64,000 nucleotides of DNA, taken from contig MU004235.1 in NCBI GenBank assembly GCA_010405405.1, forward strand, positions 1,626,538 to 1,690,537, given 5' to 3'. The first letter of the stretch is position 1. Each line of letters starts with the position of its first letter. The notes under the pieces were generated by a model that made no database searches, had not been told where the DNA came from, and worked only from the letters and a program-made list of their open reading frames with translations. This DNA is from Microthyrium microscopicum. Lineage: Eukaryota > Ascomycota > Dothideomycetes > Microthyriales > Microthyriaceae. This document shows positions 1,931-57,086 of the stretch, in pieces. The position numbers and the translations under genes are program-made.

Positions 1931-2788
1931 GATGAAGTGATGACGGGAGTTTAGAAGCTGCCGATGGTGAGATGAGAGAAAGCTCAAGTGTTGAAAGTAC
2001 TGGATTTAGATGAGCTGCGTAGAAATTGGTGTTGGGAATTCGCGTGTAGACAGTAGTAGTGCTGACTTTTTGGAGTTGAGTTGGGAAACAATAGAGACGG
2101 GGATAGCTGGACAGTGCCTGGACTTTAGACTTGGGCAACCAGCCTAGCCCGATAGAGCTTAGCGCACCCTGCGGCTGCTCAGCGAATGCATCCAGACGCG
2201 CGGGTAAATTGTCTGACTAGCGCCCTCTGATACAACAACATTGATTGACAATCTCCAACCTCCTTTCCTCTTCCTCCATCTGACTCTTGTCATTGCCTGC
2301 TATTCATCTTTTCCTGCCTTGCCTATCCAAAGCTTTGTCTACTATCATCCAGCCAAAAGAATCCTCCGTCAACGGTCGATACTTCAATCCATCAATATGA
2401 CGATATCCAAAGTTCAAGACACTCGCGTGTCATCAATGACCATCACTCATTTTACACCAAATGTACCAACACTTTTTTCGTATAGCCCCAAAGGAGGGGT
2501 TGTCGTTTTATAAACCCATCGACAACCCTCAGTACGGACCCTACCGAGCTGTAGATCCGTACTGTATTGTTCCATACATTTGATCTTGAAGATCACTAGT
2601 GAAGGAGAAGAGGGTCAGAAGGACCCTGTTGGGCATTATCCCAAATTGAAAAAAAGAGTCTATTCATTTTCCAGTCGTCAAACCAGTAAACCAAGTACCA
2701 ACAATTCATTTTCGCAAAAGCCAATTCAACCTCGTCCTTAATCCAAAATTACAATTCCCAGCAATTCTCAGTACAATATCCAGTCACC
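1931..2788. promoter_or_regulatory. Divergent promoter region between the Nup53-like and F-box genes
   Basis: There is no gene here. The region is pyrimidine-rich on the + strand close to the F-box gene. It holds a 9-bp inverted repeat, CAGTACGGA (2530-2538) and TCCGTACTG (2556-2564), with a 17-nt spacer. That is a candidate regulator-binding or hairpin site. Confidence 0.4.
2530..2564. repeat. 9-bp inverted repeat in the divergent promoter
   Basis: CAGTACGGA and its exact reverse complement TCCGTACTG flank a 17-nt spacer. It lies about 225 bp upstream of the F-box start. Function unknown. Confidence 0.6.
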
Positions 2789-3880
2789 ATGCCTCACATT
2801 GAGTATCTCGCGTCAGAGCTCTTGATCCAGATCTTCGACCATGTTGGCCAAGTCCAAGATGTCCTCAACCTCGGCGCTACCTGCCACCGTCTCCACGATG
2901 TTCAAACATCCAGTCGTCAACTGTACTTCCTCCAAGATGCCGCTGAACGCCAATATGGGCCTCTCGACGACGCCTTTCAACTGCTCACCCAAAACGACAG
3001 CCAAGAAGCACACATTCAGAGGCCCATCAAAGTGTCTCTCGCCCTCCTCAAACAAGTTGTGCACGTCGGCCGCGTAGCCGAAACCTGGGCAGACACTTAC
3101 CCCTTCAAAAAGTGGAAAGACGACTACACCAACCGCCGTCTCCTCTCTCTCGACGAGCGCTTCAAAGTACGCCGCGCAATATACCGTCTGTGGCTGTACA
3201 CCCGCGCCTTCCACACGCCGTCCCACCCACGCGAATCACGCCTCTATCCATCCGCCATGCGTGCCCGTTCCGCCCTCCTGCATATCTGGCCAACCGACGA
3301 ACTAGCCGAGATCGCCGACGTCCGCGGCGTCATTCGTGATATACTAGCATCCAACGTCTGCCCCTCCAACGGGGCCGTGACTCGTAAATTCGTGAACCGC
3401 CACGGCGACGATGCTGCGCGCCAGCTCGTCTTCAACTTGACGAATATCCATCTCACTTTTCCACCACCTGCACCGCCATGTCCACCAAACACAGGCCACT
3501 TTGCGCAGCCTCCCAAATCCGAGCTGTTCGAGCACTCGCCTACTTTCCGGGCGAGTACGACACGCACCAAGGCGTTGCATCTCGGACGCTATGGCGGACT
3601 CGATGCAGGTAATGAGGGCTGGGGCGACAGTATGGGGCACTACTATGTGGTCGAGGATATGCTCAAGCTGGATCCAGAGCGGATATTGTGGCTGAAAGAA
3701 AGAAAGATGGGTCGGGCACAGGTTGTGGAATATATCAGGGGCTTGGGGGATTGGTTTGAGAACTATGGGGATACTTGGGGCGAGACTTTGGAGTATGTGC
3801 TTGCAGAGAGAGGAGAATTTGTGGAAGATGTGATGGATGAGGGTGGGATTGTTGGGTATACTGGAGAGGATGAGGACTGA
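2789..3880 (+). CDS. F-box domain protein, 363 aa
   Basis: Single-exon frame starting at an ATG with a good fungal context (CACCATGCC). Residues 1-45 read as an F-box: LASELLIQIFDHVGQVQDVL, then a second helix with Cys and His. F-box proteins link Skp1 of SCF ubiquitin ligases to a substrate. The remainder is helical and rich in Arg and Trp, with a Pro-rich stretch near residue 230 (FPPPAPPCPP). It shows no WD40 or regular leucine-rich repeats, so the substrate-binding part is unassigned. The C-terminus is acidic (GEDED). It is not close to the tandem F-box family at 7.5-16.9 kb because it lacks their YPW tail. Confidence 0.75.
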   Translation: MPHIEYLASELLIQIFDHVGQVQDVLNLGATCHRLHDVQTSSRQLYFLQDAAERQYGPLDDAFQLLTQNDSQEAHIQRPIKVSLALLKQVVHVGRVAETWADTYPFKKWKDDYTNRRLLSLDERFKVRRAIYRLWLYTRAFHTPSHPRESRLYPSAMRARSALLHIWPTDELAEIADVRGVIRDILASNVCPSNGAVTRKFVNRHGDDAARQLVFNLTNIHLTFPPPAPPCPPNTGHFAQPPKSELFEHSPTFRASTTRTKALHLGRYGGLDAGNEGWGDSMGHYYVVEDMLKLDPERILWLKERKMGRAQVVEYIRGLGDWFENYGDTWGETLEYVLAERGEFVEDVMDEGGIVGYTGEDED

Positions 3881-7493: not shown

Positions 7494-8906
7494 ATGGCCG
7501 GCTTCCAAAAGCTACCACGGGAACTGCTTGACATGATTTTCCCTATGGCTGGTAACTGTTATCATGCGGAGGAACCGCCGCCAGTGGATAATCATAAGCT
7601 GCAATTGGAAGTGGCAAGAAGGACTCCACGGTTCTGCAGCTGTCAAAGCAATCCCAAGCGCTCTTTCAAATCAATGTCTCATGTTTCAAGGTGGTTTTTG
7701 GCGACTACTGACTTCTACTGGTTCTATGACTTCACCTTCACGATACCTTATCGCACCGATGTAGAATTTACCAGCACGGGACCTTGTCGCACCGATTTAA
7801 AAGATTATTGGAGGTTAATAACCAACAGAGTCCAGCCAAATTGCCACATGCTTCGTCTGCACCGAGCCTTGCCTGTTGCAGGAAGACCTTCCCTCGGCCT
7901 CCCGGCGGAAGTAGTGCAAGGCTTCAAGCATGTCAAGTGTCTGATCATTCAAGGACCTCTCGGTTCTGTGACCGATCCGGAGTGCAGGTACAATTGCCAA
8001 CATTGGAAAAGTCATTACTCTATTGCTCAGGCCGAATACGACGATATTTTATCTTTGTTCAAGCATCTTCCCAAAATTCGCCATTTGGATGTTGTCCATA
8101 TGCAAAGCAGCGACGGTGAAGCATTACTGAACGCACTAGGAGATGCTCTTCCAAAGGACCAACTCCAGATCTATACTTTCGGTGCCTACGAGAGTGCGTA
8201 TCATGGCAGGCAAGATTGCTACTCATCAAGAATTCCTTTCTTAAACCAAGCCAAATCGCTTGAAAAGATTAGCATATTAGGGAACTTCCAGCACCGTCTC
8301 ATCAGCTCTGTGACCGACTACGCAAATCTCACCAGTCTTCGACTTTCATGGCAATCTATCACTCATCGACTTGGCCAGTCCGGGCAGGTGCAGTTCATTA
8401 ACTATGAATTCGAACGGTTCTATCTTGGACCCAAACTTCACACTCTCATTCTAGACTTCACCCAACCCCGACTAGAACCTATGGATGCCATCGAACCATC
8501 AGATATCCAGCTAATTCAGAGACTAATTCTTGCAGCGCACACATTACAAGCAACGCTAAAGCATATCAAAATCGTTTACTCTCCTAATGTCAGAGTGCCA
8601 TCATTCATCAGCATCTCGCAGTTGCCCGCAGTTCCCAACTCGACATCTGTACAGGGTCTTCCACCACACATACGTCGCGATTATCCTTGGGCCCGACTCC
8701 GTAACCTGGCAACCGACATGGCGAACCGTGCTCCACAGGTTTCTCTTACGTGGAACACACCTTCGATGTCTGAACACGCGTTCGTGACTATATGCATGGG
8801 CCAATTACTTCAGAGGCATATTTGGTGGAGGTATAACAGGAGAGTAGATTGCTGGGACTATGACTTTTGGAAGTTTTTTCGAACGCATTTAGGACTACCG
8901 ACATGA
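7494..8906 (+). CDS. F-box/leucine-rich protein of the tandem YPW-tail family, copy 1 (470 aa)
   Basis: Single-exon copy. The start is the ATG in CACCATGGCC at 7494; the frame runs further upstream only through a non-ATG stretch. The F-box-like N-terminus reads FQKLPRELLDMIFPMAG. A Cys-x-Cys site (FCSCQ) follows, then a second helical segment. The middle holds irregular leucine-rich strands such as IRHLDVVHM, LEKISILGNF and LTSLRLSWQ. YLGPKLHTLILDF marks the start of the C-terminal module, and DYPWARL plus VSLTWNTP form the shared tail. The paralogue at 10277 carries an intron just before the LGPK motif; here the same point is continuous coding sequence. Likely an SCF substrate receptor. The target is unknown. 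Confidence 0.75.
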   Translation: MAGFQKLPRELLDMIFPMAGNCYHAEEPPPVDNHKLQLEVARRTPRFCSCQSNPKRSFKSMSHVSRWFLATTDFYWFYDFTFTIPYRTDVEFTSTGPCRTDLKDYWRLITNRVQPNCHMLRLHRALPVAGRPSLGLPAEVVQGFKHVKCLIIQGPLGSVTDPECRYNCQHWKSHYSIAQAEYDDILSLFKHLPKIRHLDVVHMQSSDGEALLNALGDALPKDQLQIYTFGAYESAYHGRQDCYSSRIPFLNQAKSLEKISILGNFQHRLISSVTDYANLTSLRLSWQSITHRLGQSGQVQFINYEFERFYLGPKLHTLILDFTQPRLEPMDAIEPSDIQLIQRLILAAHTLQATLKHIKIVYSPNVRVPSFISISQLPAVPNSTSVQGLPPHIRRDYPWARLRNLATDMANRAPQVSLTWNTPSMSEHAFVTICMGQLLQRHIWWRYNRRVDCWDYDFWKFFRTHLGLPT

Positions 8907-9142
8907 AATTATTCGAGATGATGAAGATGAACAAAGCATCTGCTTTCGGTACTTGATAGACCCGCTCAGATTGACTATGATGAGGGCGGTATCTTACGAG
9001 GAGTTGGTAGTTGGCCGCACGTCGCATTGTAGTGACTTCAATTTTACATGTTCCAGGATGTACAGTACTCAATAAGAAGTCATAGACGATAGCTCGATCA
9101 ATGACTAAGAGTCTTAAGACTTGCGTCTCGCCGGACTACATC
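8907..9142. other. Short spacer, no gene
   Basis: 3' flank of copy 1 and promoter of the miniature copy. Nothing further recognised. Confidence 0.4.
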
Positions 9143-9651
9143 ATGGCACAAGCCCACCACCATGGTCCTGTTTTCACGGAAATCGTCAAAGGTAAGACTT
9201 TACTGTCCTGAATTCTATCGCAAGTCGACTTTCATGATCGATCCCGAGGATACAAATTATTTATGAGTACTATCGTTAACGGATGCTAGGTTTCCTTGGC
9301 CCAAAGGTTCACACCATCACCCTTGATCTTTCCGGGAAATCAGATGCACACATATTCCAGACTTATCACAACCAGTGGGTACAAGACATGGGCGATATTG
9401 CAGTCAAGGAAGAGAAGTCACTTCGTGAACTGAAGATCATCTTCTCTCCATTGGAAGATCAAGCAATAGGGCTTCACTTCCATCCTACTTTTCAGGTCAA
9501 TGCTGCGCAGAATCTTTGGAATCTGCTGTATCCGTGGGATTTGATGGCTAAGCTTGTTGAGCGCTGGAGAAACCAGATACTTGTTCTATGGACCGAACCT
9601 ACAATACCAAGAGACCGGTTTAACTTGATGAGAGAGTGGACTTCTGACTGA
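9143..9651 (+). CDS. Miniature F-box-family gene or pseudogene: last-exon module with a short new 5' exon (136 aa)
   Basis: The second exon (9290-9651) matches the terminal exon of the gene at 10277. LGPKVHTITLDL matches LGPKLQTLILDF, and LLYPWDLMAKLV matches NMPYPWDMIKEL. It starts after an intact TAG acceptor at the same position and in the same phase as the paralogue's intron. Upstream there is no F-box. Instead a 49-nt open exon (9143-9191, MAQAHHHGPVFTEIVK) ends in a GTAAGA donor of the compatible phase. Joined, they give 137 codons including the stop. So this is either a working truncated gene that makes only the tail module, or a remnant whose 5' part is lost and whose short exon is fortuitous. 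Confidence 0.5.
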
Positions 9652-10276
9652 GTTCAAGGAGATTTTGGTGTTGACCGCTACCCTGTGCCGTGGTAAATCG
9701 ACCGGGTGTTGCTTGTGGATGCTGAAGAGACAGACAATGATGATTACGAGTAGTAATTTGAAGGAGGTAGACTGGACGCTGAGGTCGTTCTTGCTTGTTT
9801 GCATCCGCGAATATTGCGTTGTACCTTCCATGTGGCTCATCGGCCAATAAAACCACCTCAGAAAGACTTTCACTGCAAATTTCGAGGTTGATTCGGTTTG
9901 TCACTGCCTAGGTATTTTGCCATGCCGTCAATGAATTCATCACTATATAAGGTTTTACAAAAATTCTAATTCCTCTTCACCGCCCTTATTTCTCCAACTT
10001 TGCATTCACCATTCTAATCATCAATTTCCTTCCGCTTCACCGAAAGGACTACCGTTCAGTTCAGCTTCAAAAAAACCAACAACCTCTTCGCCTCGTCAAT
10101 GGCCACGCTTTGATAACTTCGCTAGAGTCTCAAGTGTCGCCATCTCTCGTTGCCTCTTCCAAAAGATTCGGGCAGCTGTAGATTTCTCATTGCACGGCGC
10201 AAACCATCGCATCTACCGCTTTTCATCCAGAAGACTGCGCGAGCGCTATCACCAGGCTTTCAGTCAAACTTCAAAG
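9652..10276. other. Spacer and likely promoter/5' leader of array copy 2
   Basis: No gene supported. The last 300 bases are rich in C and T, typical of fungal promoters and leaders. A TATA-like ACTATATAAGG lies near 9943. Confidence 0.4.
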
Positions 10277-11930
10277 ATGTCTCAAGAGATGTTACCAAAC
10301 TCGTCCACTCAAGCTGGCCCTTCCAGCGGAGATCAATTCTTCTTTGATCACGATCTCCCAATCCAACAAGCTCTGGAAGCGCTCACCACTCGCGAGGACT
10401 ACGTTGCCCCAAGCATTGCGCGAGCACCTCAACCACAAGAAGCACTAATTCTTCGAATGCTACCAAATGAAATTCTCAGCGACATCTTGGAACTGGCTGT
10501 TGCAAAAGAGCCATGGCGACCATACGTTCCCACTCGTCGACCTCGCTATCCATCGGAGATTTTCATCCATCGACCGCAGCCAAAAGCTTGCGATTGTTCA
10601 CAGCCAACAAACGACTCTCTTTCAACCATTGCTCTGGTCTGTTCTCAATTTTGCAACCTCGCACAACGAATCCTGTTCCATCAATTGACTCTGAAACTGC
10701 CTTTCGAATCGATCCCAACCTCTCGACTAGATTATCCCGCCTTCGTGCATGATAAGCTCAAACCACAATGTCAGACGGTGCGACTTATACTACAAGATCG
10801 CCCCTGGAACTGGGAGCATCCAGAGGTTGGTGTCGATGCTTTAGCGCAATTCGCGAGCAGCATCCTAGCCTCATTGACGAACGTACGCTGCCTTCACATC
10901 GAGAACGAGATCTGTAAACTTTGGGAGGATGGCTCGAGTCGCCTGGTCCAAGATCAACCGGATGTCATATTACTCAAAGCACTGATGCCTGTTCTACGTC
11001 AGTTTTGTCACATTAATCATTTCAGCATCCATTTCAGGAGAAATAGAGAGTGTGATGCTTTCCTAGAGATCATCAACGAATGGATCTCAGCTTGTCGAGT
11101 AACGCACTTTTCGAGCTCAACTGGTGGCTACACTGCCGGTTGGACCACACGCGGAGATTTTTCTGTTCCCATTCTTACCTCTATTCCGCTCGCCTGCGAC
11201 AAAAACTCCATTAGGTTCATGTCCTTGAAGGCCTACTTTCCTATCGATGCTTTTGATGCAAATGATTTTCCTAATCTCGAGCGACTTCTCATTTCATGGG
11301 AGTTTATGCAAACCCAAGAGCGGTCCGATAGCACAAGTTGGCGAACGCCGCCGACCTTAGAGCAGTTGCGCGACGTAGACAGTAAGTTCTCATGGCCACG
11401 AAAGTCTCTAGACTATCAAAACCCAATTCAAGGCGTCCATCAACTGGCAGAATATTGACTAACTTGTTCCAGCTCTCCTCGGCCCAAAACTACAGACTCT
11501 CATACTCGACTTCGATACCCAAGGGCACATGTACAACTGGCAACGCGACAACCACGTCTGGGTAAAGCTCCTCGGAGACACAGCCATCGAACAGAACAAA
11601 CCACTCCGCGACCTCAAAATCCTTTGGTCACCACATCGGAGCGAAGGTCCAGAATTCCACTTCAATCGGGATTTGCAGCTCGAGATTGAAAACTATACTC
11701 TGAAGTCCTGTAACATGCCTTATCCATGGGATATGATTAAAGAGCTCGCGATTTTTTGGGAGCACCATATCACTGTCCGTTGGAACAAGCCCACTATCTC
11801 GAGAAGATCGTTCGAATTTGAGAGAGATTATTTCCTTAAGAATTACAACGAGAGGTCGGGAACGAATGCTTGGATGATATATATCAAGGATGAGACGAAT
11901 GATGGTCCTATTTGGGAAGGACTGGATTAG
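10277..11930 (+). CDS. F-box/leucine-rich protein of the YPW-tail family, copy 2 (520 aa)
   Basis: Two exons: 10277-11381 and 11473-11930. The 91-nt intron has GTAAGT, a TTGACTAAC branch and a CAG acceptor. The exons total 1563 nt, an exact multiple of three. The start is the ATG of MSQEML. An F-box-like segment (LRMLPNEILSDILELAVAK) begins near residue 57. A Cys-x-Cys site (KACDCSQ) and a helix with ALVCSQFCNLAQR follow, then leucine-rich strands (LASLTNVRCLHIE, FPNLERLLISWEF). The terminal exon opens TLLGPKLQTLILDF and carries the shared tail MPYPWDMIKEL...ITVRWNKPTISRRSF. This is the best-preserved intron-bearing member of the array and the reference for the fragments at 9290 and 16581. 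Confidence 0.75.
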
Positions 11931-12147
11931 CTGTTCAGGCCGTGATTGCTAGTTTAGTCAAAATTTCATTCCATATTTGGTCTAGATAACTCGTTCTCTC
12001 CTTCCATTTTGGTCTGCACGTGGTATTCGCGTGTTGGTCTAGTCGCTCTTGCCTCCTGATATTTCTTGTGGTATATTTAGGTTTATCTTGCCCACCACGC
12101 ACGAAATGATTTTGCTTCATAATTCTCTCAGCAACATTCCCCAGACC

Positions 12148-12654
12148 ATGTCTCAGTACGCGGAAGCATCTTTCGCCACGTTCTTCGCCAGCTTGTTCAG
12201 ACGACGAGAGTCGACCGATCAGATCGGGGACAACACTGTGAGCACACCCAATGAAACTCCAAACACAGAGCCCATAGTAGAGCCCAAAAAGAAGAGAAAG
12301 GCGCATCGTGGACAGCGAGGCGGAAACAGACGTCGTAAGGCGGTCCAGCAGGTAAATTTTCCCTCGATCAAATCAAGCCATTCATTTATCGCTGATACGT
12401 TTCAGGCCACAAACGAAGTCCAGTCACCGAAAAACAAAGCCCACTCCGGTGAGGAAGGCAAGACCAACCTAGACGAGGAAGACAAAACCAACTCAGAGAA
12501 GGAGGACGAGCAAGTGGAGAAGGAGTTTGAGGAAGTCAGCAAGAAAGTCGCAGAACTTGAACGATCGCTTCACGAGAACAAGCAGCGACTAGAGCGGCTG
12601 GCTGTAAACCGTGTCCATCGTGCAGCTCGCCGGATTGTGCCACAAGATACCTAG
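12148..12654 (+). CDS. Small basic coiled-coil protein, function unknown, with an optional in-frame intron
   Basis: The frame from the ATG at 12148 (MSQYAEASFATFF) gives 168 residues if unspliced. A very basic patch (PKKKRKAHRGQRGGNRRRK) looks like a nuclear or RNA-binding signal. It is followed by an acidic Lys/Glu segment and a C-terminal coiled coil (EEVSKKVAELERSLHENKQR). Bases 12352-12405 have a GTAAAT donor, a CTGAT-like branch and a TTCAG acceptor. They are exactly 54 nt without a stop, so spliced and unspliced forms both stay in frame (150 or 168 aa). It lies inside the F-box array but shares no sequence with it. Family unknown. Confidence 0.5.
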   Translation: MSQYAEASFATFFASLFRRRESTDQIGDNTVSTPNETPNTEPIVEPKKKRKAHRGQRGGNRRRKAVQQVNFPSIKSSHSFIADTFQATNEVQSPKNKAHSGEEGKTNLDEEDKTNSEKEDEQVEKEFEEVSKKVAELERSLHENKQRLERLAVNRVHRAARRIVPQDT

Positions 12655-13470
12655 CCGGATTCCAATTTGAAAGAATGGAGAGTTCCAATTCAAGAGCTCT
12701 CCTTTGTTAATCAGACCATTTGCTGCTATCAGTCATTCCGCCTGTGTCCGCGTTCTAGACAATCAGTATACTTAGCCCATCCTTGCCCACCTAGATGTTT
12801 GATAACATTGAAACTTTCCAGGTGTAATATCAGTACTGATGGCAGCACTTTCCTGCCACATGTCAACAAGTCACAGTAGAGGTTCGAGTAAGTTTCTCGA
12901 TTGAGCTTCCTGTTGTATACAGTTTATATATCGTTCTCTATTTCGCAAATAGTAGATACTGCCACATCTACTTGGCCAGGTCCTGGGCCCTACTGGCAAG
13001 CTTGAACCTCGAAGTAACATTTAGCGATCTTTAAGGCTCATCCAAAGAGGGTCACTGTCTGGTCCTATACTTGAATGGGATACCGCTAACGTTGGTTTGG
13101 TTAAATCTGCTTACAACGGGTGGAAATTGATTACTCCCCCTGCAAATACCGGCTTACCACCTCCGTACTTTTAAGCTATTAGGTGACTCTAGCCTTTGAA
13201 GCGTGGGCTTGTGGGATTGCCGGATGGGAAAGAATGCTCTGTCACCTCACTAATACTATTTCTAAAGTGAAATGTGACGCGAAGGCAGTTGCTTCTGTTA
13301 CCGATGGCCCACCAGCTTCTCTTGGTTCAGTATAAATTCGTTCCCGCTCGTAGATTTTTCAACAACGTTACCCAACCTCTTACCTTACGCAAGATTCTAT
13401 AATTTTTCCAATTGGCCGCGTACTATCAATATATCTGCGCACTCAATAACACTCGCTCGCATCGCTAATC
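12655..13470. other. Spacer before array copy 3
   Basis: No gene supported. A TATA-like CAGTATAAATTC sits near 13330, about 140 bp upstream of the next ATG. Confidence 0.4.
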
Positions 13471-15597
13471 ATGAACTTTTCGCGCCATGAACCGCAAGGA
13501 CTGGAAGCCATACAACCTCCAGAAAATCATATCTTCAATCTACCCAACGAGGTTCTCGAACTGATCCTGGGCTTTGCCGCAACACGGGCATCCACACATA
13601 TCTCACGGTGAGTTCTTTCTTCTGTACCCTCACACGATGACGACTATCATTTTTGGGCCCTAGAGCACTCCACTATCACCATAAAGAACACTTTACTAAC
13701 AAGTACAGGGTGGACTCTATTCAAGTCTGCGATTGCGAGTGGGGCATACATGTTTCTGATATTGCGTTGGTCTGTTGGCGATTCTCTTGCATCGTCGAGC
13801 CATTACGCTTTCGCCAACTCCGACTTAGTATGCCATTAAGAACTCTTCCTTGGGATAATCTAGATGATTGCCTTGAATTCGCTGAGACAAAATTACGGAA
13901 ATACTGCTCGGTCTTACACATTGATCTAACTCGAAACCCGTTGGCCATCTACAAAGCGCAACGGGAGGCGCACAAAGCAGACCTGCTAGATTCCATGCCA
14001 GAACCCAAGAATATCGTGCTTTGGAAGCCAGTAGAAGCAAAACTCAAGATGTCAAAACTTATCCTTAGTGCTTTGACTAATGTCACTTGCTTGGTTCTAC
14101 ACTGGAGCGACATCAGCTCTGACTTTGACAAAGGCTTTGAGTTCTACTTCCAAGAGGCAATGCGCTTTGGGGAATCTAGGTCGTTCGTGAAGCACAATCC
14201 CAACAGCCTGGTCTTCGGTCTCCTCATCAAAAAGTGGTTGAAAAACCTTCGACACATTGACATAAGAGACAATACGACCGGTGAGCAGCATGGCAGTACC
14301 AATCTGAACAAGTAAGATCTTCCTAAAATTCCGGACGACTTTGTCACTAATAACACACTCTAGGATCCAGTCAGCTATATTAACTGGACTCCCGGCCAAC
14401 CATTTAGAGTCCATTTCTTTTCGTCAATGCGAGAAATACCCCGAGGGTAAGTCTTAATGCGCCATAAATCTCCTGATACTAGCAACCATCTTCATTTGAC
14501 GTTCTATGGAGAGAAAGCAACGCTCTAACCAGCGGATCAAAGTGGCTGCTATGGTTTTCTTATTGTCAAAACCTCAGCTTATCTCAAGGCGAAACCTGGG
14601 AGTGGAAACCCCAGCAAGGCGCAGAATATTCTCCTAACCTCTATATTGCACCTATTAGTCATTTACTTTGACCTTATGCTAATAACTGCCAGGGATCGAC
14701 CTGATACACTCGCAAATCCTCCATCATCGAAAGTCTCTCAAACGACTTTGCCTAGTCGGCACTGGTAAGTACCTTTCCATCCCACAAAACTTGACCAAAA
14801 AAGATGGTTTCTCCTAGATGAACACGGTGCCTACTTAGGGAGGTATTCACCAGAAGCAGCTTGCATGAGCTGAGTTCATCACAAACTCTGACCATAGCGG
14901 TTGGTGCCGATCTCATCTGGCACATCCTACTTCCACATTACCAGCAAACTTCAATTCAGATTCTTCCACTGACCGATCCTCTCAGGCGCCGAATGGGATC
15001 CAGCAGGAAATCTCATATTGCCGACAGGGTTGACCAATTTGACTCATCTTGAGCTGGCTTTCCGACCAAGGGCAAGCACAATGCCGCAGCACGCCATCCG
15101 GCCAACAGCCCACGCTGTGTTTGGGTGGAAGACAGTAAATCGTGCAATCTTGATTCCAACACTAACGACCTTCACCTGGAACTTGCTCTATAGTCGCACC
15201 CTACAAACCTTCGATACCCCCGAAGAAGCCTGGCTATTTATTTTCATCGGTACGAATCCCCAACATGTATCTTCTGCTCATCACTCTGTCTTTAGTTGGG
15301 ATGAAAAACTGCTAACAAATTGCAGAGACGGTTCTTGAAGACAAACACAAACTTCAGCACATCCACGTAAAGTACAGACCAAATTATGAAATCAAGCCGG
15401 TCTTGAGCTTCCACTATTCCAGATATCCTGGACGCCTTCGAAAGGATTTTGTCTGTCCTTGGGAGAGACTCGTGCGGATTGGTAAATACGCGAGAGCTCA
15501 TGTTATTGACATTTCATGGTCAAAAACACGTTGGACGAGAATTCTTTATGACAAGATGATATCACAGGGATTAGAAGAGCCTCAGCCTTCCTCATAA
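13471..15597 (+). CDS. F-box/leucine-rich protein of the YPW-tail family, copy 3 (six exons, 491 aa)
   Basis: Proposed exons: 13471-13607, 13664-14311, 14364-14446, 14693-14764, 14986-15249 and 15326-15597. Every junction is GT-AG and in phase, and the total is 1476 nt. The F-box reads NLPNEVLELILGFAA. A Cys-x-Cys site (VCDCEWG) and ALVCWRFSCIVEPLRF follow, as in copy 2. Leucine-rich strands include LKNLRHIDIRD, SLKRLCLVG and LTNLTHLELAF. The tail reads FVCPWERLVRI...IDISWSKTRW, where Cys replaces the Tyr before Pro-Trp. The third and fourth introns (246 and 221 nt) are unusually long for this window and hold coding-like stretches, so alternative exons or a decaying model are possible. Confidence 0.6.
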
Positions 15598-16580
15598 TGG
15601 GGATGGGTAGCAAGGACTGGGGATTGGAAAGGCAGTTCTTATTGTTTTCAAAGTCTTTCACTCGATGGATCTGCGAGTGTGGCTGTTAGTTAGCATACAT
15701 TGGTCAGAGTTTTCATAGTTACAAACTATTTTCATCACTATATCTACACGTAGGTTTTGTTGTCTAGCACGTCAAACCAGAACACATGTCGACAGTCACT
15801 TTCCCGGTCTGATATTTTGAGTATAAGCAAGCCTCCATCGTTTGCTAGAGACATGACATTGCTTTATAGCCGCCAGACTCTTGAGTTATATATGCTTCCT
15901 AGCACTTTGAAGGGTTAGATAGAGTTTGAAGACGACAGCGTTCTATCAAGAGTCTCTTCTTTTCTGCTGAGCGATGGGGACAAAACTGAATGGTATCACT
16001 CCACCCACAATTGGTTTTGAGCGTCTCACTGCGACTTGGACTTCCACTCAAAATCTTGTTGGATCTCCTATCTACCTACTTCTCAATGCATGTGAACAAA
16101 TTTCATGATCAATGAGAACATGAAGCCGGTATATAACTCAATAAAGTGGCAGGCTCCTCTTGAGGCTCTTCTCTCGCTGTTGTATCTTTGAGCGCGTGCT
16201 ACTTGATCTTTCTTTCTGCGATCTCTAACTCTCGCTTAGAGCCTCAGAAACATGTACATATACCTCTATTTGATATGTATCGACCGGCGTAGCCGCTGGA
16301 TAGGTGGTATTTGATTAGCGCTGATGATTTGCGCCCGATCTTTTACTACAATGGTCACCGACATACCGATTTACCGATTTATAACCGTAATTTCTGAGCA
16401 CGGTTGTAGTTATTTCGATATAGAAAGGAGCTAATCATGAATTATGAGAAGGTACGCTCCTTCATATAGTCTAGCGTTACTTGTTAAGCTGCCACCTTGC
16501 CTGGCTACAACTTCTACTTTGTACTATACCCTCAATGCACCGCTCAAGCTTATTGGACATTCCATGCTAACTTTTTCTAG
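15598..16580. other. 1-kb spacer between array copy 3 and the orphan exon
   Basis: I see no F-box or leucine-rich coding sequence, although a fourth full copy would be expected here from the orphan exon that follows. If it existed it is deleted or decayed past recognition. Confidence 0.4.
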
Positions 16581-16882
16581 ACACAGCCGTGGGTAAGAAG
16601 CACAACCTTCGACATATTCGAGTGGAGTTCGCGCCGGAACGATCCGAGGAGCCATCCAGCACAGGCCAGCATATTGGTTACATGTCGCTTGGTGTGCAGC
16701 TGAGTTACCATTATTTCGGGTATCTCGGACGAACCGGGAACGAGTTCGTGTATCCTTGGGATAGACTTAGGCGGCTGGCAGACAATGCCGCAATGCATGG
16801 CATCAAAGTTTCGTGGGCCAAAGAGACTTGGTCGAGGGTTGACTATGATAGACTGGTAGCGACAGCACCCAGTATGGCTTGA
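16581..16882 (+). pseudogene. Orphan terminal exon of an F-box/YPW-tail gene
   Basis: The frame GKKHNLRHIRVEF ... FVYPWDRLRRLADNAA ... IKVSWAKETWSRVDYDRL aligns along its length with the last exon of copy 3 (DKHKLQHIHVKY ... FVCPWERLVRIGKYAR ... IDISWSKTRWTRILYD). It is preceded by GCTAACTTTTTCTAG, a perfect branch-plus-acceptor, at the same exon boundary and phase. No upstream exon in matching phase or F-box segment is visible within 1 kb. Most likely the surviving 3' end of a deleted gene copy. The reading frame is still open to a TGA at 16880-16882, so loss is recent or the piece is under some constraint. Confidence 0.6.
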
Positions 16883-17392: not shown

Positions 17393-19889
17393 CTAAACAC
17401 CAGAGTCAATCTGGTCTGGAACATTGTCAGCGACGTATCCGGCCCACTTGGTGCAAGTGTCAGTGACGGCGCTGGGGATTGTGATGTTGCGGATGTCGTC
17501 TGGACGCTCGACGAGAGCGACGTAGAGACCAGCAGATACGTGCCATGCCCTATTGATTTCAATTAGTATCTTAATCATCAAGCACGATGTGTAGTTTGAC
17601 TTACAAATGACAATGCAGGATGTTGATGCTGGGGTTATCAAGCTCAATCTGGATAACAGTGTACGAGCGTGTGCCATCAGCCTGAGCCTTCTGCAAGAAC
17701 TGCACATCACGACGCTGTGGGTTGCTTGGATTGGTGATAGAGCCGTCCCAGGTGCCGAATCCTTCGGCGAGAACTTGGAAGTTGTGGCCGTGCATGTGCA
17801 TGGGATGGGCGGTAAAGGGGAAGGAGTTATACATGACGAAGCGGACTGTGCCGGAGTTGGGCAGGGTGTATACGTTCCTGTTTTGTATTAGCATATTGGT
17901 AGATTGTATGGGAGAGTGGTGGAGGACTCACCATTCAGGTTTGGGGTTCAATTGGCCTTGGGCGGCGAGCGCGAGCTGAGACACATCATAGTCTACACGG
18001 GCGGAGATGTTGTTGACAGTCCAGAGATAGTTGGTTCCGTTGTTGGTGAAGTCGATGTTGAAAACTTGAGTGTAGAGATCACCGACGGGGTCAGAGCTGA
18101 TCTCGAACTGTGGAACGGTCTGGGTGAGGGGATCGTTGCTGCAGGTATAGATCTGGTCGGATGTGATGTCGGTCTCAGTGGTCGGGACAGCATCCGGATC
18201 CGCATCCTCGTAGTATATGACAGCTGTGGCATTGGGTGCAATGCCGTCGGGAAGAGAGCAGCTGGCTTGACCAACACCAAGTTGGGAACGGAACCAGTAG
18301 CTGCCAGTAGAATCACCAGTGGCTTCAACAATGACATCAGTACGCTGGCCGATTCCGAGGGTAATGAGCTCAGTCTCATATGGAACAATGGGAACGAAAT
18401 CGTTAGCGATGACAGTGAACTTGTGGCCGTCAATCGAGATCTTTTGGAAAGCGTCGGAGGATGGGTTGATAAGACGCATGCGGAATTTCTTTCCAGACTC
18501 GAAGGCGAACTTGGCAAGACCAGCGTTAGGAGTGCAAGGAGCGGTGGTGTTGGCGCAAGGGTAGTTGGCCTTTCCGTTGATAAGATTGTTGTTGGATGGA
18601 TCTGGGAGACCGGTGGTGCTGTTCATGACATCGGCGACTAACTTGTAGTATGGGTCGTGATACCAATCGCCAACCATGACTGGACCAATATCCTCATCGT
18701 AGCCAGAGCACTGGGGAGTGTCGTTAGGACCGTGGATGATGATAGCACCGTAGACTCCACCAGAGTATTGGGCAGAGTAATGCGAGTGCCACCAAGAAGT
18801 ACCATATTGATCAGCGCGGAAAAGATAGGTGAAGCTGTCGCCTGGAATGATTGGGCACTGCGCAACAGATGGAACACCGTCCATGAATGGAGTCTCCTTC
18901 TGGAGCAGACCGTGCCAATGGATGGTGGTACCTTCAGAGTTTCCAAGATTTCCATCAAGATTGTTGGTGACCTCAACCTCAATCCAATCACCCCAGTTGG
19001 CCTCGATGGTTGGTCCAGGGAATCCACCGTTGACGACAAGACCTTGCTTGGTGACACCATCTGGTGCGATTGTCTTGTAGGAGACGTCGAATTTATATTT
19101 GCGGGTGACGTTGGTCTCTGGGACAATTCGGGGATCGATGACAACGCAGTCAGTGCTGTTACCACCAGTTGTTCCGTTGATTCCTGATGAAGGTGTGCTG
19201 CTTGGGATGGAGTAGGTGTTGGTTGGACCTCCAGATAATGAGCCACTGGCTGGGACAGAGCCAGTTGGTTTGCCAGAGAAAGTTGGCTTACCAGATCCTG
19301 TGCGCGAAAAAACCGAGCCAGTGGGTTTAGAAGTTCCAGTTGTCTTTGATCCAGAACCGCTGGATCCACCACCGTGACCACCCTTTGGTGGGGGATTTCC
19401 TTTCCATGGTGGGTTGCTTCCCCAAGGAGATCCAGGTCCCTTACCAGGGAGAGGGCCACCATATCTTGGTGCATTAGGGAGACCAAGATTGCTGTCACCG
19501 TTTTGCTGTTGTGGAGACAATGATGGCTTGAGGTTGGATCCACTTGGGAGCCATGCTGGTCCAGAGTATTGTCCAGCAGCAGGTCCACCTTTTCAAATTA
19601 GATATATCAAAACCAAGGAGGGCATATATTTACCAGGTGGGTATTGACTGGGCACTGGTCTTGTGGTTACAATCTCTGTAGTTCCAGTTTCCACAGCCTT
19701 GCCACCGCCCTGGCCAGCCTCAACTGTGATAGTCGTGTAGACCGTCGTTGTTCCACGAGGTCCACATTTCGATTGTGTTGGGAAAGCATAACTTGTGGCA
19801 TTAGAAGAGTGTTTAGGAGCAGAGCCAGAGGAATGCGCAGCAACGAGGCCGCCGAGGGCCAAGCCGCTCAAAAGGGAGCGGGCAACCAT
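17393..19889 (-). CDS. Secreted ascomycete laccase (multicopper oxidase) with a very long N-terminal extension, 780 aa
   Basis: Four exons: 19889-19634, 19588-17932, 17877-17605 and 17549-17393. The introns are 45-56 nt and all junctions are in phase (2343 nt). A signal peptide is followed by about 230 residues rich in Gly, Pro, Ser and Thr (GPLPGKGPGSPWG; repeated SGKPTGSV). The first cupredoxin domain begins near residue 250. All four copper signatures are present: HWHG, HSHYSAQ, HPMHMHGHNF and HCHLAWHVSAGL. The axial type-1 copper position is Leu, the high-potential class. The protein ends DSGV, matching the Asp-Ser-Gly plug of ascomycete laccases. Such enzymes oxidise phenols with reduction of O2 to water, in lignin or melanin chemistry. 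Ordinary members are about 560-620 residues, so the extension is exceptional. It may anchor the enzyme in the wall or matrix. Confidence 0.93.
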
Positions 19890-56217: not shown

Positions 56218-57086
56218 ATGGATATAACTCCTGCAGTACAGCCTGTTTTTCTCATCCAGGAACTCTTTGAGGAGGTATGATTCAATTCCGTCATCATCTA
56301 TCGTCATTGGGTCCATTCCACTATGGCCTAGCAACTGCATATTCAATAATCCTATCTGATGTCTCCTGAATCCGATATCAATCTCGGTTTCTCACAAATC
56401 TTATCCCCCCATATCAAAAGCTAACAACCTTCCAGATCTTTCAATATCTGGACTTGAAAGACCTCTACCGCCTCCTCGGCGTCTGCCATCTATTCAACCA
56501 CCATATCAGCACATCCACTCCCCTGCGCCGCCTCATGTTCATCACACCCTCCTCCACCGGCACCATCGTTCCCCTGCGCATAACAAATTACATATCGCCA
56601 CGCATCCCCCGCCGCCCAGAAACAATCTGGTCCACCAATCCCTCCAAAACCTCCAATACCACCCTCAACTCTACTAGTATGGAGATCCCCCGCCCAACAC
56701 TAAACCCCGAAATATCCTACCTCTGCATAAACAAATTTCTCCACACCCAACGCCTCAAACGCACCGCTCCCCCCTTCTCCACCAACTGGAACCAAAACCA
56801 ATACAACACCCACCACTCCCTTCTCCCACCCGCCCACGCAGATTTCGCCCTCCGACTGGTACCCCGTAGTATCCAGAGTATGGAGAAGCATGATTCTCGC
56901 CGGCGCATGTTAGTGACGCAGCCGCCAGTGGCAGATGTGGTGGTGGGGAGAAGTGATGCGTTGTGGGGGTTATATGAGGCGCATAATGAGAAGGGGGTTA
57001 CGGTGGGGGATGTGTTGGATGCGGAGGCACGGGTTAGTGGGACGAATGATCGGGTTTATGGGGCGAGATTTGAGGGATGGCGGTGA
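56218..57086 (+). CDS. Small F-box protein, 235 aa
   Basis: Two exons: 56218-56274 and 56436-57086. The 161-nt intron has a GTATGA donor, GCTAAC branch and TTCCAG acceptor and is in phase (708 nt). Splicing assembles one F-box across the junction, LIQELFEEIFQYLDLKDLYR, followed by LLGVCHLFNHHISTSTPLRR. After the F-box the protein is Pro/Arg/Asn-rich with a terminal TVGDVLDAEARVSGTNDRVY segment and no recognised repeat domain. This short layout, an F-box plus a variable C-terminus, is common for fungal F-box orphans. It is not a member of the YPW-tail array. Probable Skp1-binding adaptor. Target unknown. Confidence 0.7.

Follow-up and report, generated by a model that had tools for sequence, protein, structure and literature searches.

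The FBXL adaptors of SCF (Skp1-cullin-F-box) ubiquitin ligases, such as Skp2, FBXL2, FBXL17, and plant TIR1/COI1/D3, with yeast Rad7 as a leucine-rich repeat (LRR) relative, have an N-terminal F-box and a leucine-rich solenoid body. In the plant F-box/LRR/FBD family, an F-box and a diverged LRR body are followed by a conserved C-terminal FBD module (PF08387) of unclear role, and duplicates are clustered. A layout resembling that of the plant family was found in Microthyrium microscopicum, in five loci at 7494-16882 of a 64 000 nt stretch (the window; G000:C6:1626538-1690537, from a genome of 36.9 Mb and 20 contigs). It is likely that this cluster consists of five old members of a divergent FBXL-type family, in which a C-terminal tail with a YPW motif closes the solenoid of an SCF adaptor. 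Copies 1 and 3 are full-length, copy 4 is either full-length or interrupted in its middle part, and copies 2 and 5 contain only the tail. The original prediction had been one F-box/leucine-rich-type gene family with a better kept tail, which stands in outline; the tail is now best interpreted as the units that close the solenoid, and the family as genome-wide.

The fungal family differs from the FBXL adaptors in the F-box, which has an insert of 13-37 residues, often Cys-bearing, and falls below Pfam cut-offs, and in the family-wide YPW tail, which is without a Pfam model in these scans. It differs from the plant F-box/LRR/FBD genes in being fungal, in number, with about 22 places found as against hundreds, and in the absence of an FBD match, either in the window copies (E up to 10) or in eight relatives (E up to 1). 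The function of the F-box in SCF ligases is addressed in PMC5029927, and according to a review, 26 F-box proteins were detected together with SkpA in one Aspergillus species and 30 in another (PMC8631298). Growth of F-box families in filamentous ascomycetes, which the present family resembles, includes an expansion in Trichoderma (PMC3218866) and the Dothideomycetes orthogroup OG0007673 (PMC11412873); the passages concerned give counts only and describe no tail module. Expression data tabulated for a nematode-trapping fungus also include F-box genes (PMC3828140), and drift of plant F-box genes is the topic of, for example, PMC3030570.

All of the tail motifs predicted for the five loci are present: YPWARL and VSLTW in copy 1, YPWDLM and LVLW in copy 2, YPWDMI and TVRW in copy 3, CPWERL and DISW in copy 4, and YPWDRL and KVSW in copy 5. 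Of the proposed consensus, [Y/C]PW(D/E/A)xL, the PW core is present in each, but the final L may be L, M, or I. The common unit is larger than had been described, starting with LGPKxxTxxLDF, continuing through LxxIxIxYSP, and then reaching YPW and the aromatic strand, about 110 residues in total. Hidden Markov models built from four tails recovered the fifth with E-values of 9e-10, 2.5e-17, 1e-23, 3e-13, and 5e-16 for copies 1 to 5, respectively. The database for this comparison contained 423 window open reading frames, 18 family tails, and 20 shuffled versions of each; across the five tests together, the best shuffle had an E-value of 0.031 and the best unrelated window frame 0.05. Likewise, a profile of all five tails matched 14 out of 16 tails from outside the window in the same genome at E < 1e-4, with C2a at 0.007 and no match for C5, while the best of 800 shuffles reached 0.46 and the best unrelated window frame 0.17. 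As the outside tails were collected by their likeness to the family, 14 out of 16 measures coherence and not the frequency of such tails. A profile common to the tails is therefore well above noise, and the five tails are homologous, as established at the level of sequence comparison; with the tail homologous across loci, these are one paralogous family in the genome. That the motif common to the five loci arose by chance or convergence is ruled out by the leave-one-out profiles and the shuffles, and the five-tail profile and the intron place and phase, which are identical in copies 2 and 3 and in copies 4 and 5, also speak against this extremely improbable explanation.

Searches of the tail against Pfam (E up to 10, window copies) returned unrelated sub-threshold matches only (RabGGT_insert, Peptidase_C107), and no convincing relative of the tail or of copy 1 was found among PDB sequences, where the best tail match, at E 0.005, was to a fimbrial fusion protein. 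In the literature searched, no description of a YPW tail in fungal F-box proteins was found; this was a limited look and does not show absence from print.

Single-protein searches of the same genome identified at least 17 family places beyond the window cluster, 16 of which have a tail seen; counts of large families from these searches are lower bounds. There are three places on C12 (two in tandem), three on C2 (two of them neighbours), two on C4, one each on C3, C5, C9, C10, and C13, and four on C6 beyond the window, including one tandem pair. The tail is therefore not special to the cluster. One place, C2b, was seen without a tail and was left out of the five-tail profile test, C5 and C2a were recognised mostly by their N-terminal part, and both C5 and C2b were left out of the tail tree. 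Two further search matches, L026 (C1, E 1.09) and L033 (C7, E 1.22, two stops), were judged unrelated by eye and left out. The C6 tandem pair of the family (L013/L028) is present on the - strand at G000:C6 ~1587.8-1589.2 kb, ~37-39 kb before the window start, and is therefore a second cluster in this contig region; at 57 % identity, it is the closest tail pair among those compared. The C10 relative (L057, G000:C10 ~1008.9-1009.5 kb) extends over two open frames, with one stop within the match of the joined query, and either contains an intron or is a broken copy.

It had been predicted that the bodies are diverged while the tail is kept, and alignment scores bear this out. For the 28 pairs from eight full-length copies, the median z of the pairwise score against shuffles was highest for the tail (9.0), lower for the F-box (4.6), and lowest for the body (1.3), with z > 3 in 89 %, 71 %, and 21 % of pairs, respectively. 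Two of the ten aligned copies, C2a and C5, were left out of this test; across all ten, mean pairwise identity was 0.26 for the F-box, 0.18 for the body, and 0.21 for the tail. Non-synonymous (pN) and synonymous (pS) change was compared in five pairs outside the window, these being C6c-C6d, C12a-C12b, and the three pairs of the trio C4a/C4b/C9, which are not independent. Values of pN for body and tail were 0.34/0.26, 0.41/0.31, 0.42/0.35, 0.44/0.37, and 0.49/0.45, with bootstrap intervals that overlap in all five pairs, so the body is only modestly faster. Body pN was 0.41-0.49 against pS of 0.64-0.78 in four of the pairs and 0.34 against 0.77 in the fifth, which covers part of the body; pS over bodies and tails was 0.64-0.88. 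In the window, the tails of copies 2 and 3 have pN 0.38 against pS 0.81, and those of copies 4 and 5 have pN 0.36 against pS 0.74. All of these comparisons are saturated, or close to it, at synonymous sites, therefore the duplicates are old and ratios of the dN/dS type are unreliable.

These data fit better with purifying selection acting on average on both body and tail, with the body moderately freer. The diversifying selection proposed for the leucine-rich part is not supported, body pN being well below pS, although there may be positive selection at individual sites. Likewise, the fast birth and death that had been suggested is doubtful in view of the near-saturated synonymous change, as compared within one genome, and neither a recent origin nor positive selection is supported by the pN and pS of the paralogue pairs. 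For the five window copies as a single clade, the best tail tree needs two changes, and 25 % of 200 bootstrap trees contain the clade; copy 1 and five other rows have long branches.

Full-length members of the family begin with an LPxExL helix, followed by an insert of the length given above, often with one or two Cys, and a second helix mostly with VC; this helix-insert-helix looks like an F-box interrupted by an insert. The Cys-x-Cys reported with an F-box in three full copies is present in copies 1, 3, and 4 (CSC, CDC, and CDC), and is explained by its location in the F-box insert. The accompanying F-box is supported in copy 3 and weakly in copy 4, but not in copy 1 by Pfam. With N-termini as they stand, PF12937 matched 10 out of 15 (best E 1.6e-4) and PF00646 7 out of 15 at E <= 1; once the insert was cut out, PF12937 (F-box-like) matched 10, PF00646 (F-box) 8, and PF15966 (F-box_4) 5 out of 15, with a best E-value of 3.9e-7. 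The score of copy 3 rises from 20.4 to 30.2 bits on removal of the insert, passing the cut-off of 24.3 only then, and that of copy 4 from 14.5 to 20.2 bits, which is still below it. Copy 1 has no Pfam F-box match, even with the insert cut out, and its F-box was placed by alignment to copy 3 (match with copy 3 as query, E 4e-12). Of the 113 places that the F-box-like model has in the whole genome at E <= 1, 56 are above the cut-off and, by coordinates, none is a family F-box. No clear F-box chain was found in the PDB using the N-terminal profile, and no LRR model was listed for the family in the Pfam scans. The family is missed at Pfam cut-offs because of the insert within its F-box and the irregularity of its repeats.

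Two other F-box genes are present in the window. The gene at 2690-3877 (+; PF12937 22.3 bits, 25.4 in the genome scan) has a different body and no YPW tail, and the one at 56370-57083 (+; PF12937 25.2 bits) has a sub-threshold DUF6699 match after the F-box.

The structure model of copy 1 is a strand-helix repeat, with low mean confidence and a better tail, and its best solved matches include plant FBXL members, the F-box/LRR adaptors D3 and COI1; the model suggests that the body is a leucine-rich solenoid. In the tail, there are strands at 317-321, 357-361, and 417-420, followed by helices at 335-350, 398-412, and 427-449, respectively, with pLDDT (predicted local distance difference test) of 84-92 in the best ten-residue blocks and 37-40 in the loop at 371-390. 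The tails were not placed in unrelated folds, an outcome that would have told against the original prediction: the copy 3 tail model, built from an alignment overlapping that of copy 1, has the same strand and helix order, with one extra low-confidence helix. The tail alone found nothing above noise among PDB folds, and a short strand-helix piece is perhaps too generic for this. As the tail supplies the final strand-helix units, it is best read as the cap that ends the solenoid of an SCF substrate adaptor.

The N-terminal F-box of the intact proteins would, as in other members of its family, bind Skp1 and join the protein to an SCF ubiquitin ligase, while the leucine-rich body would be the substrate-binding arm, freer to vary, and the tail would close the solenoid as its last strand-helix units. 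The Pro-Trp is at the start of one of the last helices of the tail and the aromatic residue at the end of the next strand, and the two would form a hydrophobic end plug kept for folding. Skp1 binding, the ubiquitin ligase role, and the cap function of YPW are what we infer. The tail could instead be a docking or dimerisation module for one common partner, with the body selecting varying substrates. Such a module would account for the slow change of the tail, which lags behind the body in each of the five pairs and comes close in rate to the F-box, also a docking site, and for two loci that retain the tail without a body and with acceptors intact. However, in the copy 1 model the strand-helix repeat of the solenoid runs on into the tail, and YPW as printed is present in 12 of the 16 outside tails. 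The Trp position of the last strand also varies among these, being Tyr/Phe in 10 out of 16, perhaps Trp in one (C2c), and non-aromatic in five, a variation to be expected if the residue serves in packing and not in a strict binding motif. Docking is an unlikely role. It is also rather unlikely, though conceivable for copies 1, 2, 4, and 5, that some of the copies are F-box-like proteins no longer working in SCF ligases. The failure of Pfam to find an F-box in copy 1, the middle of copy 4, and the missing bodies of copies 2 and 5 are consistent with such a loss, whereas the F-box model matches in 10 of the 15 family N-termini at E <= 1, copy 3 included, speak against it, as does amino-acid change that lies well under the synonymous level in all pairs measured.

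Copies 2 and 5 are somewhat more probably dead 3' ends, remnants of a partial duplication or deletion, than live tail-only genes. No body exon was found upstream of either by tblastn (E < 2), except one tail match running back over two stops, and in 18 tests with 300 shuffles each no body was above chance. The best of these (8 of 300 shuffles scoring as well) was for the stretch before the copy 3 tail, upstream of copy 2, and the next (20 of 300) for the stretch before the copy 1 tail, within the supposed copy 2 intron, a weak likeness also seen by tblastn. The 98 nt after the putative first exon of copy 2 could therefore be decayed coding sequence with stops instead of an intron, which suits a decayed gene. 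Both copies also lie near their closest relatives, the tail tree joining copies 2 and 3 with support of 97/91 and copies 4 and 5 with 99/98. Against this, stop-to-stop frames of 123 residues in copy 2 and 103 in copy 5 are open, with motif residues retained, and neither copy has a longer end branch than its sister (0.98 in copy 2 against 1.29 in copy 3; 0.32 in copy 5 against 1.08 in copy 4). The low pN relative to pS of the two tail pairs points the same way, but these values include the common past of each pair and fit a recent truncation too. The copy 2 acceptor, which ends at 9289, matches that of copy 3 exon 2 in place and phase, and the copy 5 acceptor that of the copy 4 last exon, with a clear branch site. 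Copy 2 also has a putative, phase-matched short first exon with good donor and acceptor, which would suit a live gene. If live, copies 2 and 5 might encode small tail-only proteins that pair with or block full-length tails, acting as decoys for SCF adaptors, but this is very unlikely.

The gene models of the cluster are collected in Table 1. Copy 3 (10277-11930) has a product of 520 aa and one intron. Copy 4 (13471-15597) has several introns, with exons that are clear up to 14446 and again from 14973. A strict splice scan gave no intact gene model for it, and a loose scan gave 36 open paths, the best 8 of which all drop the LRR segment at 14973-15249; copy 4 may be broken in the middle, or an intron may have been missed by the scan.

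Table 1. Features of the five-locus cluster. Positions are those of the window, and all five loci of 7494-16882 are on the + strand.
Feature	Position	Strand	Description
Copy 1	7494..8906	+	Single exon, 470 aa; F-box/LRR-type, with degenerate F-box with Cys-bearing insert (CSC), body, and tail with YPWARL
Copy 1 tail, from YLGPKLHTLILDF on	8421..8903	+	Strand-helix-strand-helix-strand-helix (structure model)
Copy 2	9290..9651	+	Tail exon only (YPWDLM), open frame
Copy 2 putative short first exon (MAQAHHHGPVFTEIVK)	9143..9191	+	Donor GTAAGA at 9192, phase matches; predicted from sequence
Copy 3 exon 1	10277..11381	+	F-box split by 37-aa insert (CDC), leucine-rich body
Copy 3 intron	11382..11472	+	GTAAGT ... 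CTAAC ... CAG, 91 nt, phase 1
Copy 3 exon 2	11473..11930	+	Entire tail: LLGPKLQTLILDF ... YPWDMI ... VRW
Copy 4 exons 1-3	13471..14446	+	Introns 13608-13708 and 14312-14363; F-box with CDC insert, beginning of body
Copy 4 middle	14447..14972	+	No convincing intron-exon path
Copy 4 LRR-like segment and tail start (ILIPTLTTFTWNLL)	14973..15249	+	From sequence and leave-one-out profile
Copy 4 last exon	15326..15597	+	Remaining tail (CPWERL, ISW); intron 15250-15325 before it, phase 1
Copy 5	16581..16882	+	Tail exon only (YPWDRL, VSW); acceptor and branch site (GCTAAC...TAG) intact

A charged open frame (KKKRKAHRGQRGGNRRRK, with an acidic and coiled-coil-like end) at 12043-12654 (+) lies between copies 3 and 4 and has no Pfam match at E 0.01. 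Adjoining the cluster, at 17393-19592 (-), is a laccase-type multicopper oxidase (Cu-oxidase_3, Cu-oxidase) with a Gly/Pro/Ser-rich stretch on the N-terminal side. Short introns, together with the Zn2Cys6, Fungal_trans, DUF7492, multicopper oxidase, and GH32 genes of the window, point to a filamentous fungus.

No Pfam model specific to the family turned up in these scans, yet the family is probably of the familiar F-box/LRR type. The role of its tail, as end cap or common docking site, is a clean, testable question. The tail profile finds genes where the F-box model fails, and could therefore reveal under-counted SCF adaptors in fungal genomes.

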